Below, piece after piece: positions 26,533 through 47,782 of a stretch of 64,000 nt of DNA (positions within the stretch are counted from its first letter, which is position 1; every line of letters begins with the position of its first letter). Source of the stretch: Nocardioides aquaticus (GTDB lineage: Bacteria; Actinomycetota; Actinomycetes; Propionibacteriales; Nocardioidaceae); contig NZ_CP075371.1 in the NCBI RefSeq assembly GCF_018459925.1, forward strand, positions 4,092,001-4,156,000, written 5' to 3'. Position numbers and translations under genes: made by a program. The notes under the pieces were generated by a model. That model ran no database searches and was not told the origin of the DNA. It saw only the letters and a program-made list of their open reading frames with translations.

Positions 26533-27219
26533 GTGAGCGACCTCATCGACACCACCGAGATGTATCTGCGGACCATCTACGAGCTCGACGAGGAGGGCAT
26601 CGTGCCCCTGCGGGCGCGGATCGCCGAGCGCCTCCACCAGTCGGGTCCGACCGTCTCCCAGACCGTGGCCCGGATGGAGCGCGACGGCCTGCTCACCGTC
26701 GAGGGCGACCGGCACCTGGAGCTGACCGAGGACGGCCGCCGCCTGGCCACCCGCGTGATGCGCAAGCACCGGCTCGCCGAGCGGCTGCTGGTCGACGTGA
26801 TCGGCCTGGACTGGGAGCTGGTCCACGAGGAGGCATGCCGCTGGGAGCACGTCATGTCCGAGACCGTCGAGCGGCGCCTGCTGACGCTGCTGGAGAACCC
26901 GACCGAGTCGCCGTACGGCAACCCGATCCCCGGGCTCGACGAGCTCGGCCAGAACCACGTGGTCGAGGAGTTCATGACCGGCGTCGAGTCGCTCTCGTCG
27001 GTCGCCGGGGCCGAGGAGGGCCGGGTGCTGGTGCGCCGGATCTCCGAGGAGATGCAGAAGGACGAGCACCTGATGAGCGCGCTGCGCCGCGCCGGCGCGA
27101 CCCCCGACAAGACCGTCACCGTGATCTCGACCGGTGCCGGCGTGCTGATCGGCTCCGGCGGAGAGACCGCCGAGATCGTCCCCGAGGCCGCCGACCACAT
27201 CTTCGTCTCCCGCGTCTGA
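26533..27219 (+). CDS. ideR: DtxR/IdeR-family metal-dependent repressor
   Basis: 228 residues from the GTG at 26533; an ATG at 26515 would add six residues not found in the family. IdeR with Fe(II) represses siderophore and iron-uptake genes. Seen: the HTH region SDLIDTTEMYLRTIYELDEEG and IAERLHQSGPTVSQTVARMERDGLL (1-60), the metal-binding and dimer domain with MRKHRLAERLLVDVIG and EEACRWEHVMSE (metal ligands near Cys/Glu/His around residues 98-106), and a C-terminal SH3-like domain. The Cys-Arg-Trp-Glu-His cluster is as in M. tuberculosis IdeR. It is transcribed towards the convergent small transcript ending near 27239. Confidence 0.95.
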   Translation: MSDLIDTTEMYLRTIYELDEEGIVPLRARIAERLHQSGPTVSQTVARMERDGLLTVEGDRHLELTEDGRRLATRVMRKHRLAERLLVDVIGLDWELVHEEACRWEHVMSETVERRLLTLLENPTESPYGNPIPGLDELGQNHVVEEFMTGVESLSSVAGAEEGRVLVRRISEEMQKDEHLMSALRRAGATPDKTVTVISTGAGVLIGSGGETAEIVPEAADHIFVSRV

Positions 27220-27238
27220 CGAGTCCCACGGCGATCGC

Positions 27239-27355
27239 CGGACGTCATACGACCCGGACCGTGGCCGAGCGGCGCCACGTATGACGTCACGTAGGTGGGG
27301 AGCCGGACGTCATACGACCCGGGCCCGGGCCGGGCGGCGCGACGGATGACGTCCC
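27239..27355. repeat. Tandem palindromic repeat, two copies, probable terminator
   Basis: Two copies start 65 bp apart. In each, GACGTCATACG is followed about 27 bp later by its reverse complement: 27241-27251 with 27278-27288 (11 of 11), and 27306-27316 with 27343-27353 (10 of 11). Each copy can form a hairpin with a GC-rich top. They lie between ideR (plus) and the minus-strand candidate RNA, so a two-way terminator fits. The arm ends in the self-complementary GACGTC. Confidence 0.7.
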
Positions 27356-27536
27356 GCGGGCGCCACCCCCGAAATGCACGCAGCCCGCAGGTGTGGCGCT
27401 CCGGGTCCCGAGGAGGGACCGGTGCGACCGCCCCCGGTGGACGTGAACTGCTGACCGGGGCACCTGCGGGCCGGGTGACTGCTGTGGATTCGCCAGCAGC
27501 CGGTCGGTCACTGGACCGACGGGTGGTGCTGGGCTG

Positions 27537-27575
27537 CTAGCGGGCAGCCACCTCACGCGTCCTAGAAGAATGCAT
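27537..27575 (-). CDS. 12-residue peptide ORF with near-perfect Shine-Dalgarno
   Basis: ATG 27575-27573, TAG 27539-27537, product MHSSRTREVAAR. The leader GAAAGGAGGTGGTCC (27581-27595, minus strand) can pair with the 3' end of 16S rRNA over 15 nt with one G-U wobble, the strongest ribosome-binding site in the window. The start lies in a 12-bp palindrome (AGAATGCATTCT). Three Arg in twelve residues. It may be a translated sensor or leader, or a decoy for ribosomes; it does not resemble any known protein. Confidence 0.6.
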   Translation of the reverse strand: MHSSRTREVAAR

Positions 27576-27607
27576 TCTCCGGACCACCTCCTTTCCCGTG
27601 TCCGATC

Positions 27608-27636
27608 ACCGTAGATCGGCCCCGCCCGTCGTTCAA
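27608..27636 (-). promoter_or_regulatory. Housekeeping-type promoter of the candidate RNA
   Basis: On the minus strand TTGAAC (27636-27631) and TACGGT (27613-27608) are separated by exactly 17 bp. Start is predicted near 27601, only 6-7 nt before the extended Shine-Dalgarno. Nothing comparable points at ppc on the plus strand. Confidence 0.65.
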
Positions 27637-27736: not shown

Positions 27737-30598
27737 ATGACCAGCTCCACGACCCCCGGCCGGGCGCCGCTCAGCACCGAGCAGATGATCGCCGCCGACC
27801 GCCGCGACCCCGACGTCGCGACGTTCGCCGGGGGCGTGTCCTCCGACGAGCACCACGCCGCCCTGCGGTCCTCGGTACGCCAGCTCGGGCGGCTGCTCGG
27901 GGAGGCGCTGACCCGGCACGAGGGTCCCGAGCTGCTCGCCCTCGTCGAGCAGGTCCGCGCGCTGAGCCGTGAGCCCGACGACGGCGCCCTGCACGAGCTG
28001 CTCGACGCCACCGACGACGCGACCGCGATCGTGCTGGCGCGGGCGTTCACGGCGTACTTCCAGCTGGTCAACGTCACCGAGCAGCTGCACCGCTGGCAGG
28101 AGCTGACCTCGCGCGAGTCCGGCCCGCTGGCCGACGCCGTCGGCCGGATCGGCGCGGCGCTCGAGGACGGCAGCATCGACCGGGACCTGGTCGTCGACGT
28201 GCTCGGACGCCTGGAGTACCGCCCGGTCTTCACCGCCCACCCCACCGAGGCCAGCCGACGCTCGGTGCTGGTGCTGCTGCAGAAGATCGCCGAGGAGACC
28301 TACGTCGCCGAGGACCCCCGTGGCCGCCCGGCCGACCGCGCGCGCAGCGAGCGCCGGCTGGCCGAGCTGGTCGACCTGCTCTGGCAGACCGACGAGCTGC
28401 GGGTCGAGAAGCCGGAGCCGGCCGACGAGGCCCGCACGCTGCTCTACTACCTCCAGTCGTTGGCCGCCGAGGTCGTGCCGGGCCTGCTCGAGGAGCTGGA
28501 CCGCTGCCTGGCCGGCATCGACGTCGTGCTGCCCGCGACCGCGCGTCCGCTGCGCTTCGGCACCTGGGCCGGTGGCGACCGCGACGGCAACCCCAACGTC
28601 ACCCCGCAGGTGACCCTCGACGTGCTCGGCCTGCAGCACGACGTGGGCCTGCGCGAGCTGGTCCGCGGTGTGGAGGAGCTGCTGGGCGAGGTGTCGTCCT
28701 CGACCCGGGTGGTCACCCCGAGCGACGGGCTCGCCGCCAGCCTGGAGGCCGACGCCGAGGCGCTGCCGATCACCTACTCCACGATCCGCCGGCTGAACGC
28801 CGAGGAGCCGTACCGGCTCAAGCTCAGCTTCGCCCGGGTGCGCCTGCTCCGCACCCGCGACCGGCTCGCCGAGGGCCGCGCGCACGAGCCCGGCCGCGAC
28901 TACCTGACCCTCGACGGGCTGCTCACCGACCTCGCCCTGGTGCGCGACTCGATGCTGGCCGACGGCGACCACCTCACCGCCGACGGCGGCGTGCTCCGCC
29001 TGCTCCGCACCGCGACCGCGATCGGGCTCGGCCTGGCCACCCTCGACGTCCGCGAGCACAGCGAGAAGCACCACGCCGCGCTCGAGGTGCTCGTCGACCG
29101 CCTCGGCGAGCACCCCGAGCCGTACGGCTCCCTCGACCGCCCGGCGCGGATCCGGCTGCTCTCGGCGGAGCTGGCGAGCCGGCGCCCGCTGACCGGCGCC
29201 TGCACCCCCGGCCTGCGCGAGGACCCGGACAGCCCGGTGGCCGCCTCCCTGTCGCTGATGGACGCGATCCGTGAGGCGCTGGACACCTTCGGGCCCGACG
29301 TCGTGGAGACCTACATCGTCTCGATGACCCACGACGTCGACGACCTGCTGGCCGTGGTCGTGCTGGCCCGGGAGGCCGGCCTGGTCGACCCCGGCACCGA
29401 GGACACCCCGGCCACCGCCCGGATCGGGTTCGCGCCGCTGTTCGAGACCGTCGCGGAGCTGGAGGCCGCGGAGCCGCTGCTCGAGGCCCTGCTGGGCGAC
29501 CCGGCGTACCGCCGCGTGGTCGCCGCCCGCGGCGACGTGCAGGAGATCATGCTCGGCTACTCCGACTCCTCCAAGGACGCCGGGATCGCGGCCTCGCAGT
29601 GGCAGATCCACCGCGCCCAGCGCGCGCTGCGCGACGTCGGGCGCCGGCACGGCGTCGTGATGCGGCTCTTCCACGGCCGCGGCGGCTCCGTCGGGCGCGG
29701 CGGCGGCCCCACCGGGGAGGCGATCCTGTCCCAGCCCTACGGCAGCCTCGACGGGCCGATCAAGATCACCGAGCAGGGCGAGGTGATCAGCGACAAGTAC
29801 ACCCTGCCCCAGCTCGGCCGGGAGAACCTCGAGCAGGCGCTCGCAGCCGTCCTGGAGGCCTCGGTGCTGCACCGCACCTCGCTGCTGCCGCCCGACGTGC
29901 TCGACGGCTGGAACACCACCATGGCCCGGGTCGCCTCGGCCGGCCAGGAGGCGTACCGCGGCCTCGTGCGCGACCCCGGCCTGGTGCCGTTCTTCGTCTC
30001 GGCCACCCCGGTCGACGAGCTCGGCGGGATGAACATCGGCTCCCGCCCGGCCAAGCGCCCCGGCGGGGCCGGCGGCCTCGACGACCTCCGCGCGATCCCG
30101 TGGGTCTTCGGCTGGACGCAGTCGCGGATGATCCTGCCCGGCTGGTACGGCGTGGGCTCGGGCCTGGCGGCCGCGCGCGAGGACGGGCGCGGGGAGACGC
30201 TGCGCGAGATGTACGGCTCGTGGGCGTTCTTCCGCACCTTCGTGTCGAACGTGCAGATGACGCTGGCCAAGACCGACCTCGACATCGCCGCGCGCTACGT
30301 CCGCTCCCTGGTGCCCGAGGACGCCGCGGGGCTGTTCGACCAGGTGCGCGCCGAGCACGAGCGGGCCGTCGAGCAGGTGCTGTGGGTGACCGGGCAGGAC
30401 TCGCTGCTCGCGGGGTCCCCGACGCTGCGGCGCACCCTGGAGACCCGCGACGCCTACCTCGCGCCGCTGCACGCCCTCCAGGTCTCGCTGCTCGGCCGGG
30501 TGCGCGCGGCCGGCGAGGACGAGCGCCACCCGGACCTGCAGCGGGCGCTGCTGCTGACCATCAACGGGATCGCGGCCGGCCTGCGCAACACCGGCTGA
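27737..30598 (+). CDS. ppc: Phosphoenolpyruvate carboxylase
   Basis: 953 residues. It fixes bicarbonate onto PEP to give oxaloacetate, refilling the TCA cycle. Seen: the catalytic His loop FTAHPTEASRRSVL (near residue 170), LRFGTWAGGDRDGNPNVTP (near 275), the LMLGYSDSSKDAGI segment with the essential Lys (near 600), FHGRGGSVGRGGGPT (near 650), and the C-terminal GLRNTG with the invariant Gly end. Actinobacterial PEPCs are usually activated by acetyl-CoA; sites are not obvious here. The ATG at 27737 has a poor upstream SD. Its stop is 2 bp from a triplet of 22-bp repeats. Confidence 0.97.
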   Translation: MTSSTTPGRAPLSTEQMIAADRRDPDVATFAGGVSSDEHHAALRSSVRQLGRLLGEALTRHEGPELLALVEQVRALSREPDDGALHELLDATDDATAIVLARAFTAYFQLVNVTEQLHRWQELTSRESGPLADAVGRIGAALEDGSIDRDLVVDVLGRLEYRPVFTAHPTEASRRSVLVLLQKIAEETYVAEDPRGRPADRARSERRLAELVDLLWQTDELRVEKPEPADEARTLLYYLQSLAAEVVPGLLEELDRCLAGIDVVLPATARPLRFGTWAGGDRDGNPNVTPQVTLDVLGLQHDVGLRELVRGVEELLGEVSSSTRVVTPSDGLAASLEADAEALPITYSTIRRLNAEEPYRLKLSFARVRLLRTRDRLAEGRAHEPGRDYLTLDGLLTDLALVRDSMLADGDHLTADGGVLRLLRTATAIGLGLATLDVREHSEKHHAALEVLVDRLGEHPEPYGSLDRPARIRLLSAELASRRPLTGACTPGLREDPDSPVAASLSLMDAIREALDTFGPDVVETYIVSMTHDVDDLLAVVVLAREAGLVDPGTEDTPATARIGFAPLFETVAELEAAEPLLEALLGDPAYRRVVAARGDVQEIMLGYSDSSKDAGIAASQWQIHRAQRALRDVGRRHGVVMRLFHGRGGSVGRGGGPTGEAILSQPYGSLDGPIKITEQGEVISDKYTLPQLGRENLEQALAAVLEASVLHRTSLLPPDVLDGWNTTMARVASAGQEAYRGLVRDPGLVPFFVSATPVDELGGMNIGSRPAKRPGGAGGLDDLRAIPWVFGWTQSRMILPGWYGVGSGLAAAREDGRGETLREMYGSWAFFRTFVSNVQMTLAKTDLDIAARYVRSLVPEDAAGLFDQVRAEHERAVEQVLWVTGQDSLLAGSPTLRRTLETRDAYLAPLHALQVSLLGRVRAAGEDERHPDLQRALLLTINGIAAGLRNTG

Positions 30599-32465: not shown

Positions 32466-33110
32466 TCAGGGGGCGAGCCGGCAGGTCCGCCAGTCCTGCT
32501 CCTGGGGGTCGCGCTCGTAGACCAGCCGGTCGTGCAGCCGGCTCGGCCGGCCCTGCCAGAACTCCACGACCTCCGGCCGCACGACGTAGCCGCCCCAGTC
32601 GTCGGGGACCGGCACGTCCTCGCCGAAGCGGTCGTCCGCGGCGGCGTACGACGCCTCGAGCGCGGCGCGGTCGGCGACCGTGCTCGACTGCCGCGAGGCC
32701 CAGGCCCCGATCCGCGAGCCGCGGGGGCGGGAGGCGAAGTACGCCTCGACCTCCTCGCGCGGCAACGGCTCGGCCGGGCCCTCGACGCGGACCTGGCGCT
32801 CCAGGGCGTGCCAGGGGAAGAGCAGCGCGGCCCACGGGACGTCGGCCAGCTCGCCGCCCTTGCGGGAGGCGAGGTTGGTGAAGAAGACGAACCCGCGCTC
32901 CGAGACCCCCTTGAGCAGCACGATCCGCGACGAGGGCCGCCCGTGCGCGCCGGCGGTCGAGAGCACCATCGCGTTCGGCTCGTGCACGCCCTGGTCCACC
33001 GCCTGGTCGTACCACCGCTCGAACATCGTGACCGGGTCGGCGGCCAGGTCGGCCTCGTCGAGGCCGCCGCGGGCGTACTCCTCGCGGGCGGAGGAGAGGT
33101 CTCGGCTCAT
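32466..33110 (-). CDS. pdxH: Pyridoxamine 5'-phosphate oxidase
   Basis: 214 residues. It oxidises pyridoxine- or pyridoxamine-phosphate to PLP with FMN and O2. Seen: DPVTMFERWYDQAVDQGVHEPNAMVLSTAG (about 25-54), RPSSRIVLLKGVSERGFVFFTNLASRKGGEL (FMN site), PWAALLFPWHALERQVRVEG, RGSRIGAWASRQSS (near 128) and the C-terminal EFWQGRPSRLHDRLVYER dimer and FMN segment that marks true PdxH. ATG at 33110. It is divergent from citrate synthase across 110 bp and convergent with the flavin reductase gene. Confidence 0.96.
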   Translation of the reverse strand: MSRDLSSAREEYARGGLDEADLAADPVTMFERWYDQAVDQGVHEPNAMVLSTAGAHGRPSSRIVLLKGVSERGFVFFTNLASRKGGELADVPWAALLFPWHALERQVRVEGPAEPLPREEVEAYFASRPRGSRIGAWASRQSSTVADRAALEASYAAADDRFGEDVPVPDDWGGYVVRPEVVEFWQGRPSRLHDRLVYERDPQEQDWRTCRLAP

Positions 33111-33220
33111 GCCTCGAGGCTACGGCGCGACGGGGCGCCCACGGCCACCCGGCGCGGTGCGGCACAATGCCGAGCCAGAGCAGATCCACGACGAAGGTCC
33201 CGACGAAGGAGTCGTCACGC

Positions 33221-34324
33221 ATGGTTGAGGTACACCACGGACTCGAGGGCGTCGTCGCCTTCGAGTCGGAGATCGCGGAGCCCGACAAGGAGGGCTCGGC
33301 GCTGCGCTACCGCGGCGTCGACATCGAGGAGATCGTCGGCCGGGTGCCGTTCGAGAACGTCTGGGGCCTGCTCATCGACGGCTCGTACGACCCGGGCCTG
33401 CCGCCCGCGGAGGCCTACAACATCCCGGTCCACACCGGCGACGTGCGCGTCGACGTCCAGGCCGCGATCGCGATGCTCGCCCCGGCCTTCGGCTTCCGCC
33501 AGACCTACGACATCTCCGACGAGCAGGCCCGCGCGGACCTCTCCCGGGTCGCGGTCATGGTGCTGTCCTACGCCGCGCAGTCCGCACGCGGGCTGAACAA
33601 CGCCGTCGTCCCGCAGTCCGAGGTCGACCAGGGCGGCACCCTCGCGGAGAAGTTCCTGATCCGCTGGAAGGGCGAGGCCGACCCCAAGCACGTCAAGGCG
33701 ATCGACGCCTACTGGAGCAGCGCGGCCGAGCACGGCATGAACGCCTCCACCTTCACCGCCCGCGTGATCACCTCCACCGGCGCCGACGTGGGCGCCGCCT
33801 TCTCCGGCGCCATCGGCGCGATGAGCGGCCCGCTGCACGGCGGTGCGCCCTCGCGCGTGCTCGGCATGATCGGCGACGTCGAGGAGTCCGGCGACGCCGA
33901 GGGCTACGTCAAGGGCCTGCTGGACCGCGGCGACCGCCTGATGGGCTTCGGCCACCGCGTCTACCGCGCCGAGGACCCCCGCGCCCGCGTGCTGCGCCGC
34001 ACCGCCAAGGAGCTGAACGCGCCCCGCTACGAGGTCGCCGAGGCCCTCGAGAAGGCCGCGCTGAAGGAGCTCAAGGAGCGCCGCCCCGACCGCGTGCTCG
34101 AGACCAACGTCGAGTTCTGGGCCGCGATCGTCCTCGACTTCGCCGAGGTCCCGCCGCACATGTTCACCTCGATGTTCACCTGCGCGCGCACCGGCGGCTG
34201 GTCGGCGCACATCCTGGAGCAGAAGCGCACCGGGCGCCTGATCCGCCCCTCGGCCGTCTACACCGGCCCGGGCGAGCGCAGCGCCAGCGACATCGAGGGC
34301 TGGAAGAGCGCCTGGGGCGAGTGA
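33221..34324 (+). CDS. Citrate synthase (type II, short form)
   Basis: 367 residues. It condenses acetyl-CoA and oxaloacetate to citrate. The short, non-NADH-sensing length resembles citrate synthase 2 of actinobacteria. Seen: VEVHHGLEGVVAFESEIAEPD at the start, ALRYRGVDIEEIV, catalytic EHGMNASTFTARV (His near 176), SGPLHGGAPSRVLGM (His near 205), GFGHRVYRAEDPRARVL (His near 250, with the Asp), and RPSAVYTGPGER at the end. GAAGGAG precedes the ATG at 33221. Since 2-methylcitrate synthases share this fold, a propionate role is possible but less likely. A 23-bp perfect hairpin follows the stop. Confidence 0.93.
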   Translation: MVEVHHGLEGVVAFESEIAEPDKEGSALRYRGVDIEEIVGRVPFENVWGLLIDGSYDPGLPPAEAYNIPVHTGDVRVDVQAAIAMLAPAFGFRQTYDISDEQARADLSRVAVMVLSYAAQSARGLNNAVVPQSEVDQGGTLAEKFLIRWKGEADPKHVKAIDAYWSSAAEHGMNASTFTARVITSTGADVGAAFSGAIGAMSGPLHGGAPSRVLGMIGDVEESGDAEGYVKGLLDRGDRLMGFGHRVYRAEDPRARVLRRTAKELNAPRYEVAEALEKAALKELKERRPDRVLETNVEFWAAIVLDFAEVPPHMFTSMFTCARTGGWSAHILEQKRTGRLIRPSAVYTGPGERSASDIEGWKSAWGE

Positions 34325-46873: not shown

Positions 46874-47782
46874 CTACCGACCGGGGGGCTCATCCCCCAC
46901 CGAGGCCAGGGCGACCCGCACCACGTCGAGCACCGGGCGCGGGTCCGGCCCGGCCAGCTCGGGCAGCGGCACCCACGCCACCTGCGAGGTGGTGCCGCCG
47001 ACCTCGGTGACCCGTGGCTCCGCGGCCGGGTCGGCCGCGGTGGCGGCGAAGAGGAGGTGGACGCCGTGGAAGTCCTCGTCGCGGCCGCTGGGGGCCGTCC
47101 CCCGCAGGTGGACGTCGTGCACGTCGAGGACCCGCCCGACCTCGACCTCGAGGCCGCACTCCTCACGCACCTCGCGGCGCAGGGCCTCGCGCGGGGGCTC
47201 GCCGTGGTCGACGCCGCCTCCGGGCAGCGTCCAGGAGCCCGCGTGGAAGCCCCGGGCGGAGATCTCGGTCAGCAGGACGGCCGGCTCGGGCTCGGCGCGG
47301 ACCAGGACGGCGTACGCCGCCAGCCGCTGCAGGCGGGCCGGGCGGTGCTCGGCGAGCGCCTCGGTGACCAGCGCGGTCGTCGGCAGGGACCCGTCCAGCA
47401 CCCGGTCGAGGGGGTGCCAGGCCGCGTCGACCGTGGACCCGTCGACCTCGACCACCCGTGGGGCCGGCGCGTCCTTGGCCGCCCAGCCCTCGTAGACCAG
47501 CCGGACGCCGTGGGCGTCGCGCACCTCGCCGTCCCAGACCCGCTCGGGCTGGTGCCAGGAGTAGGTCCGCGCGGTCGGGCCGACCTCGACGTCGAGACCG
47601 GTCTCCTCGTGGACCTCGCGGACCACCGCCTGGCGAGGGTCCTCGCCGTGGTCGATCCCGCCGCCGGGCAGGGTCCACAGCTCGGTCCCGCTGATCCGGG
47701 GCGCCAGGCGGCTGAGCAGGATCTCACCGTTGCGGAGCACCACGGCGTAGGCGCCCCAGCGCTGCCAGCGCGGCGGGCTCAC
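46874..47782 (-). CDS. Double Nudix hydrolase
   Basis: 302 residues with two complete Nudix boxes in one chain. First: [28 protein letters not shown] (about 40-67), second: [28 protein letters not shown] (about 186-213), both matching GX5EX7REUXEEXGU. Each half starts with a [14 protein letters not shown] or [20 protein letters not shown] strand and ends in a W-x-P or WVPLPEL segment. The second box's Glu set (EVREEC) is intact. The family removes nucleoside-diphosphate-linked waste. GTG start at 47782 overlaps the acyltransferase stop (GTGA). Substrate is not predictable. Confidence 0.88.

Follow-up and report, generated by a model that had tools for sequence, protein, structure and literature searches.

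The closest functional analogue would be the small mRNA rreB of Bradyrhizobiaceae. It was reportedly described by Hahn et al. in 2017 as a stand-alone mRNA of ~165 nt with a 14-codon ORF behind a 17-nt extended Shine-Dalgarno (SD) sequence, and is said to be ribosome-associated and weakly translated. The RNA described here resembles this plan (a stand-alone short mRNA, an extended SD and a very short ORF) in its sequence features; we know of no pseudoknot in rreB that connects the ORF to a 3' hairpin. By direct match, the closest described system is the Ms_IGR-5 family, which was reportedly first described by Li et al. (RNA 19:74-84). This family is already catalogued (Rfam RF02471, typed 'Gene; sRNA') as a non-coding sRNA of unknown function, and the output of its model mentions no ORF.

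According to the available excerpts of PMC4974804, ribosomal reads were significant for Ms_IGR-5 homologues of both M. abscessus and M. smegmatis; the same excerpts caution that classical non-coding RNAs also turn up in such data, and raise the question whether such ribosome-protected RNAs are coding. Excerpts of three further reports mark Ms_IGR-5 as RNA-seq validated in S. lividans (PMC8079986), list it, for S. avermitilis, as one of only 2 out of 139 small-RNA units that have a match in Rfam (PMC8780764) and map IGR-5 to ncMSMEG15794c (PMC10454040). The available text of these four sources gives no ORF for Ms_IGR-5, and that of PMC4633059, PMC9094748, PMC11133741 and PMC6429828 does not name it; PMC11133741 reports 9 smORFs in sRNA regions. 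In a search confined largely to openly accessible papers, no report of a conserved ORF or of this pseudoknot in the family was found. As far as these searches show, the conserved 12-codon frame, the pseudoknot between ORF and hairpin loop, the non-leader context and the records beyond the phylum are new.

Two other systems share parts of this plan. In S. aureus, long SD:anti-SD pairing directs initiation at AUU and AUA starts; initiation at these low-yield sites is reduced and sometimes condition-dependent (PMC13009471, available excerpts). Those starts belong to protein genes, whereas the RNA studied here is stand-alone and structured. SgrS/SgrT and SR1/SR1P (named in the available excerpts of PMC11133741) likewise combine a small RNA with an ORF, but there the peptide is an active product, whereas in our RNA conservation of residues beyond what pairing requires is weak or unproven.

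The Rfam search of the window (the whole 64,000-nucleotide stretch of Nocardioides aquaticus DNA that was analysed) gave a single RF02471 match at the gene, 27422-27601 on the minus strand, with 96.2 bits (cut-off 45) over the full model (1-184). The genome contains one copy. The gene is therefore a member of a known family that is catalogued as a non-coding sRNA. An earlier note on this DNA had overlooked this membership, the knot that ties the ORF to the 3' hairpin, and the unrelatedness of the palindromes. The model shares SD, P4, P6 and P7 with the window RNA (Table 1), in a direct match of sequence and structure over its whole length. However, its structure line is without P1, P3 and the pseudoknot (PK) and pairs the SD with codons 9-11. 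Because the model also misplaces the 3' hairpin in the window, the match stops short of the 3' end of the RNA.

Table 1. Features of the Ms_IGR-5 locus and its surroundings (window coordinates)
Feature	Sequence	Position	Strand	Remarks
-35 element	TTGAAC	27631..27636	-	
-10 element	TACGGT (TAnnnT)	27608..27613	-	17-bp spacer to -35
Whole RNA, RF02471 (Ms_IGR-5) member		27370..27601	-	both ends predicted
P1, 5' strand	CACG	27597..27600	-	pairs with CGUG 27554..27557
Extended SD	GAAAGGAGGTGGTCC (= GAAAGGAGGUGGUCC)	27581..27595	-	pairs with own 16S end GGATCACCTCCTTTCT, one G-U
12-codon ORF	MHSSRTREVAAR + UAG	27537..27575	-	frame conserved across homologues
PK, 5' strand (codons 5-6)	GGACG	27558..27562	-	covaries with 3' hairpin loop
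P1, 3' strand	CGUG	27554..27557	-	final G is first base of GAGGUG
SD-like motif (codons 8-9)	GAGGUG	27549..27554	-	9 nt before stop; invariant in 111/111 Rfam-derived loci
P3, 5' strand	GGUGGCUGC	27544..27552	-	inside ORF; covaries with 27482-27474
P4, 5' strand	CGCUAGCAGCC	27532..27542	-	codon 12 and stop; 11 bp in window
P4, 3' strand	GGCUGCUGGCG	27491..27501	-	pairs with 27542-27532
Joint	GAAUCC	27486..27491	-	conserved (A1 alignment), mostly unpaired; mean unpaired probability 0.73
P3, 3' strand	GCAGUCACC	27474..27482	-	covaries with ORF strand
P6, terminator-like helix, 5' strand	GCCCGCAGGUG	27461..27471	-	changes on both sides in 10/12 pairs
P7 hairpin loop, PK 3' strand	CGUCC	27439..27443	-	P7 nested inside P6
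P6, 3' strand	CACCUGCGGGC	27383..27393	-	pairs with 27471-27461
Palindrome copies	GACGTCATNCG...CGNATGACGTC (46-48-bp repeat)	27237-27291, 27302-27356		downstream of predicted RNA end
DtxR/IdeR-type gene		26533-27219	+	convergent to RNA
ppc		27737-30598	+	divergent from RNA

The promoter that had been proposed for this locus, with its two elements and exact spacing, was found on the minus strand (27636-27631 and 27613-27608). In 100 of 111 homologues TAnnnT lies 12-13 nt upstream of where the model begins, and 72 of the 89 in-class homologues have TTG 16-18 bp 5' of the -10 element. The A at 27601 is the likely +1, and the RNA probably ends near 27370, past the terminator-like helix 27471-27461 / 27393-27383. 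The tandem palindromes, with which the earlier note had the gene end, were rejected as part of the RNA, as both lie downstream of this end and the repeat is dispersed elsewhere in the genome. Its exact pattern occurs at 10 places, some of them tandem (0 for the reversed control), and it has the appearance of a REP-like repeat, or of a family of operators, in the N. aquaticus genome. Elsewhere in the window ARAGORN called a tRNA-Arg (gcg) at 46951-47038, which was not reported by Rfam at the gathering score.

Since the DtxR/IdeR-type gene is convergent and ppc divergent, no protein gene lies downstream on the strand of the RNA. A short ORF, an SD and alternative pairings do resemble those of attenuators, and with a same-strand gene called downstream in 56 of 109 loci, a leader peptide or attenuator of the downstream gene had to be considered. 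However, the downstream gene in the window is convergent, and the RNA has its own terminator-like helix at its end. Moreover, neighbours differ across families: the four orientations are near equal (30, 28, 26 and 25 of 109 loci, genes being called by a codon-composition heuristic), and from family to family the nearest genes belong to numerous clusters with no relation to one another, the largest of 15 loci with 13 in one family. With such variable neighbours and orientation the RNA is not a leader, in agreement with the stand-alone gene of the earlier note, and we regard attenuation as highly improbable. In the window, genes resembling pdxH and citrate synthase are present at 32466-34324, ~5 kb away from the RNA. 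Protein clusters read from their representatives as citrate synthase-like or PdxH-like (clusters 3 and 4) adjoin the RNA in 17 loci (L024, L026, L027, L028, L029, L030, L035, L038, L041, L042, L081, L089, L093, L094, L096, L098 and L100), which suggests a loose, ancient neighbourhood.

Both the SD and the 12-codon ORF proposed earlier are real on the minus strand, with 15 nt pairing to the 16S end of the same genome. Of all 3,563 start-like codons of the window, this one has the strongest SD duplex (-29.9 kcal/mol, against -20.9 for the runner-up), a strength far beyond chance. An SD of this kind could titrate or park 30S subunits while the short ORF lets the 70S recycle, and the RNA would then be a ribosome or 30S decoy or reservoir. 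The ribosomal reads published for mycobacteria (PMC4974804, available excerpts) and the top rank of the SD both fit such a decoy. Nevertheless, a decoy would require neither the pseudoknot nor the long-range helix, nor a stop at an exact distance; since titration of ribosomes would also demand a very high copy number, we consider it unlikely.

The frame was compared in 111 Rfam-derived loci (our own, the 30 best in-class matches and 80 more). The model that found them takes account of sequence and pairing and is blind to frames; the loci share ancestry, however, so that the counts given here are not independent events. A canonical start is present in frame 8-17 nt past GGAGG in 99/111 loci, versus 33 and 10 in the other two frames; the remaining 12 have CTG, ATT, ATC or ACG at the start position. 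No locus has an in-frame stop inside the ORF (0/111), and in 110/111 the stop is found exactly 9 nt past GAGGTG (TAG 98, TGA 7, TAA 5). The sole exception, L084, has CAG at +9 and TAG one codon later, giving 13 codons. The frame is 12 codons long in 87 of 89 in-class loci and 13 to 15 codons in the 22 outside the class. The distance from GGAGG to GAGGTG varies modulo 3 (59/34/18 of the 111 loci), so it is the frame, not the length of the RNA, that is kept. The homologues thus passed the check set by the earlier note, namely whether ORF, SD and helices are lost among them.

The same plan of SD, frame, GAGGTG and stop was seen in 56 loci kept from a second scan (the HGAY scan, see below), but these had been preselected for SD and GAGGTG and are therefore not counted as evidence for those features. 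In 30 of the 56 the in-frame start behind the very strong SD appears to be AUU (ATT in L147, L154, L157, L161, L173, L176 and L187) or CUG (CTG, 23 loci). Many members outside the class have weak or non-canonical starts, and translation may be rare in them. A stop changed to CAG was also seen in the Nocardioidaceae loci L129 and L140, besides L084/L136 (same genome).

The earlier note had also described a compact fold. Its 11-bp helix is present and encloses a variable domain. The stability of the fold is unremarkable: the Rfam-matched stretch has a z of -1.20, with 23 of 200 shuffles as stable. As stability alone is unexceptional, the evidence for structure is covariation. In alignment A1 (36 in-class sequences) P1, P3, P4, P6 and the PK jointly have 97.4% of cells paired and 18 pairs with changes on both sides; the covariation score is 0.296 against 0.150 in shuffles, 0/500 shuffles reach this score, the paired-cell value or the double-change value, and slid-register controls pair 35-43%. 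The second pair of P1 is A-U in 86 of the 111 loci, G-C in 10, C-G in 10, G-U in 3, U-A in 1 and unpaired in 1, and the third is C-G in 97, A-U in 9, G-C in 3, U-A in 1 and unpaired in 1. Of the aligned helices P4 is the least regular (91.5% paired cells over the 4 pairs counted), and in 22 of 36 rows the base that faces the middle position of the stop codon forms no standard pair with it. The stop is thus retained where pairing does not require it, which argues for coding. The start and the SD core, with mean unpaired values of 0.61 and 0.41, are the most open of the 5' segments that were measured.

GGAC of ORF codons 5-6 is complementary to GUCC in the P7 loop. In the phylum alignment A3 (58 rows), 56 of the 57 rows with letters pair 4/4 at the PK; L084 is misaligned in A3 and pairs in a structure-blind alignment. 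As a test, genomes with deviating ORF cores were sought, so that selection was on the ORF side and not on the loop. Within the family of the window, 69 of 294 genomes have a GGAU core, and 30 such loci were read. The HGAY scan for cores starting with A, C or T (GGAC cores being outside it) gave 63 loci in named genomes, 56 of which were kept; L144, L175, L182, L185, L189 and L198 have no stop at the expected place and L201 is masked.

The 3' halves of 148 loci were then aligned without regard to structure in three sets, the first of which ('noc') also takes in families f10 and f13-f19; 71/71, 45/46 and 26/31 rows paired 4/4, the core of family f47 being read by hand one base earlier (register -9). 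The pairing rows comprise GGAC/GUCC (52), GGAU/AUCC (36 rows, from 32 genomes), UGAC/GUCA (35), CGAC/GUCG (11), AGAC/GUCU (6) and wobble rows (2), counts that include repeats from the same genomes (L114=L031, L128=L090, L134=L088, L136=L084) and two stretches counted twice (L063 = L199 and L163 = L169). As to the failures, L170 is misaligned, UGACC and GGUCA both being present; L168 has a 3-nt codon insertion, with GGAC found upstream; in L179, L203 and L205 the register is off by one (GACC with GGUC); and in L167 one pair is broken, leaving 3/4.

The 3' GUCC of the SD can also pair with GGAC (P2). As the main partner of the ORF, P2 was rejected on three unselected loci with CGAC or CGAU (L052, L053 and L063), where the SD is still GGUCC and the P7 loop follows the ORF. 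In these loci it is thus the loop, not the SD, that tracks changes in the ORF, and the PK is better supported than P2. The HGAY scan required GGAGGTGGTCC and therefore cannot show that the SD stays put. Two of the 8 Rfam-derived GGAU loci (L086 and L088) have GAUCC in the SD, which restores P2 too. P2 and the PK are mutually exclusive; P2 could be an alternative state, and the RNA may make use of the two pairings.

GAG GTG never varies, even silently, in 99 distinct frames of the Rfam-derived set, and the residue before E-V (R, C, S, L, P, G or E) follows helix P1; together these point to constraint on nucleotides and frame. The C-terminal residue varies (R, S, G, C, H or V). By a crude count on 5-24 frames per family, synonymous exceeded non-synonymous rates at codons 2-4 in 3 of 6 families (f5 0.700/0.480, f18 0.776/0.637, f21 0.353/0.102) and at codons 5-12 also in 3 of 6 (f1, f5 and f21), the other 3 being without excess.

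These data bear on the possibility that the 12-residue product (x-T-R/C-E-V-A-x-R/S) is functional and that the RNA structure only tunes its synthesis. The conserved frame, start and stop, the invariant E-V, the common T and the synonymous excess that half of the families show at codons 2-4 and again at codons 5-12, most clearly f21, would be expected of a peptide effector. The E-V codons, however, are without synonymous variation, the residue before E follows P1, the C-terminal residue is variable and the other 3 of 6 families have no synonymous excess, which makes a peptide effector improbable. The nucleotides and the frame are clearly kept in the sequences compared, the residues at most weakly. 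A type I toxin gene was rejected as well: type I toxins are hydrophobic membrane peptides, and the ORF product is a charged peptide of 12 residues.

Three options had been offered earlier: sensing of ribosome occupancy or of the translated peptide, a ribosome decoy, and a dual-function RNA. A dual-function RNA with an active peptide has become less likely. Occupancy is the best fit, given that the residues vary whereas the frame, its start and stop and the distance to the stop are conserved. Ribosome occupancy or passage, rather than the peptide, would then be the function.

Comparison of homologues shows the promoter, the extended SD, the in-register short frame, P1, P3, P6 and the PK, with P4 less regular. 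On this basis we favour, tentatively and at somewhat less than even chances, the view that this Ms_IGR-5 member is a stand-alone small mRNA/sRNA acting in trans as a ribosome-gated RNA switch. In the proposed mechanism, the unusual strength of the SD would hold a 30S subunit, which would open P1/P2, and the 70S reading the 12 codons would break the pseudoknot and then P3 and P4. The ribosome would tend to pause at the stop, as GAGGUG sits at the SD position for codon 12 in the P site; the stretch around it pairs with the 16S tail at -11.4 kcal/mol. We infer this pausing role for GAGGUG, whose invariance could equally serve P3. A ribosome parked at the stop would leave the 3' part (the GAAUCC joint and the CAGUCACC strand) free. 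The ribosome-free RNA would be the locked form and the occupied RNA the open form, and the state of the RNA could report the initiation or termination capacity of the cell and act on a target RNA, a protein or ribosomes; the peptide would be a by-product.

Ordinary base pairing with mRNAs through the C-rich or GAAUCC unpaired segments, the ORF serving only the stability of the RNA, would suit the filing as an sRNA in Rfam, the C-rich 3' half and the conserved, mostly unpaired joint. As it leaves the conservation of frame and stop and the pseudoknot with the ORF unexplained, we think such an sRNA rather unlikely.

If translation is the trigger, a stand-alone RNA would sense the ribosomes themselves, in antibiotic producers and mycobacteria alike. 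In any case, a catalogued sRNA carries a translated-looking frame, conserved throughout the phylum and in a small number of records from outside it, and a pseudoknot linking codons to the terminator-like hairpin. The family thereby becomes directly testable, and RNAs filed as non-coding deserve a second look for very short conserved frames.

RF02471 matches were present in 192 of 296 sampled genomes of the class, one copy each except for G085 (family f14), which has two, the better being L077. Over the phylum, 70 of 396 sampled genomes had a match, 35 of them above the curated cut-off, and none was found in 14 control genomes. In genus g2 of the family of the window 7 of 8 genomes gave no match, and neither did the 5 genomes listed for family f37; lineage loss is possible, or the copies were missed by stricter filters.

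Five homologues came from records titled outside the phylum: Candidatus Eisenbacteria (L150), Candidatus Lindowbacteria (L170 and L205), Leptospiraceae (L203) and an unplaced groundwater bacterium (L179). All are metagenome-assembled genomes in which contamination is possible, but L203 adjoins genes read as ispE/glmU/prs-like and its 8-kb stretch has a GC content of 52%. The search beyond the phylum covered non-GGAC cores in named genomes only. Each of the five has an SD, a frame of 11-14 codons, GAGGTG and a stop at +9; L150 scores 61.4 bits in Rfam (above the cut-off) and the other four 31.4 to 40.8. A run of U comes straight after P6 in three of them (L170, L179, L205), and in L203 the helix is followed by a U-rich stretch, so that P6 looks like an intrinsic terminator there. 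Rather than being an actinobacterial non-coding sRNA, Ms_IGR-5 might belong to an ancient multi-phylum class of bacterial RNAs in which the frame is structural and a pseudoknotted switch, with the ribosome as its ligand, signals in trans the capacity for initiation or termination, a wider reading that we put forward as possible but doubtful.

Phage-borne copies were sought and rejected, as none of 4 viral-contig matches has a stop at the expected place. In the plasmid search a single record matched, one of 2.66 Mb from Nocardia farcinica, and only in part (query 1-66).
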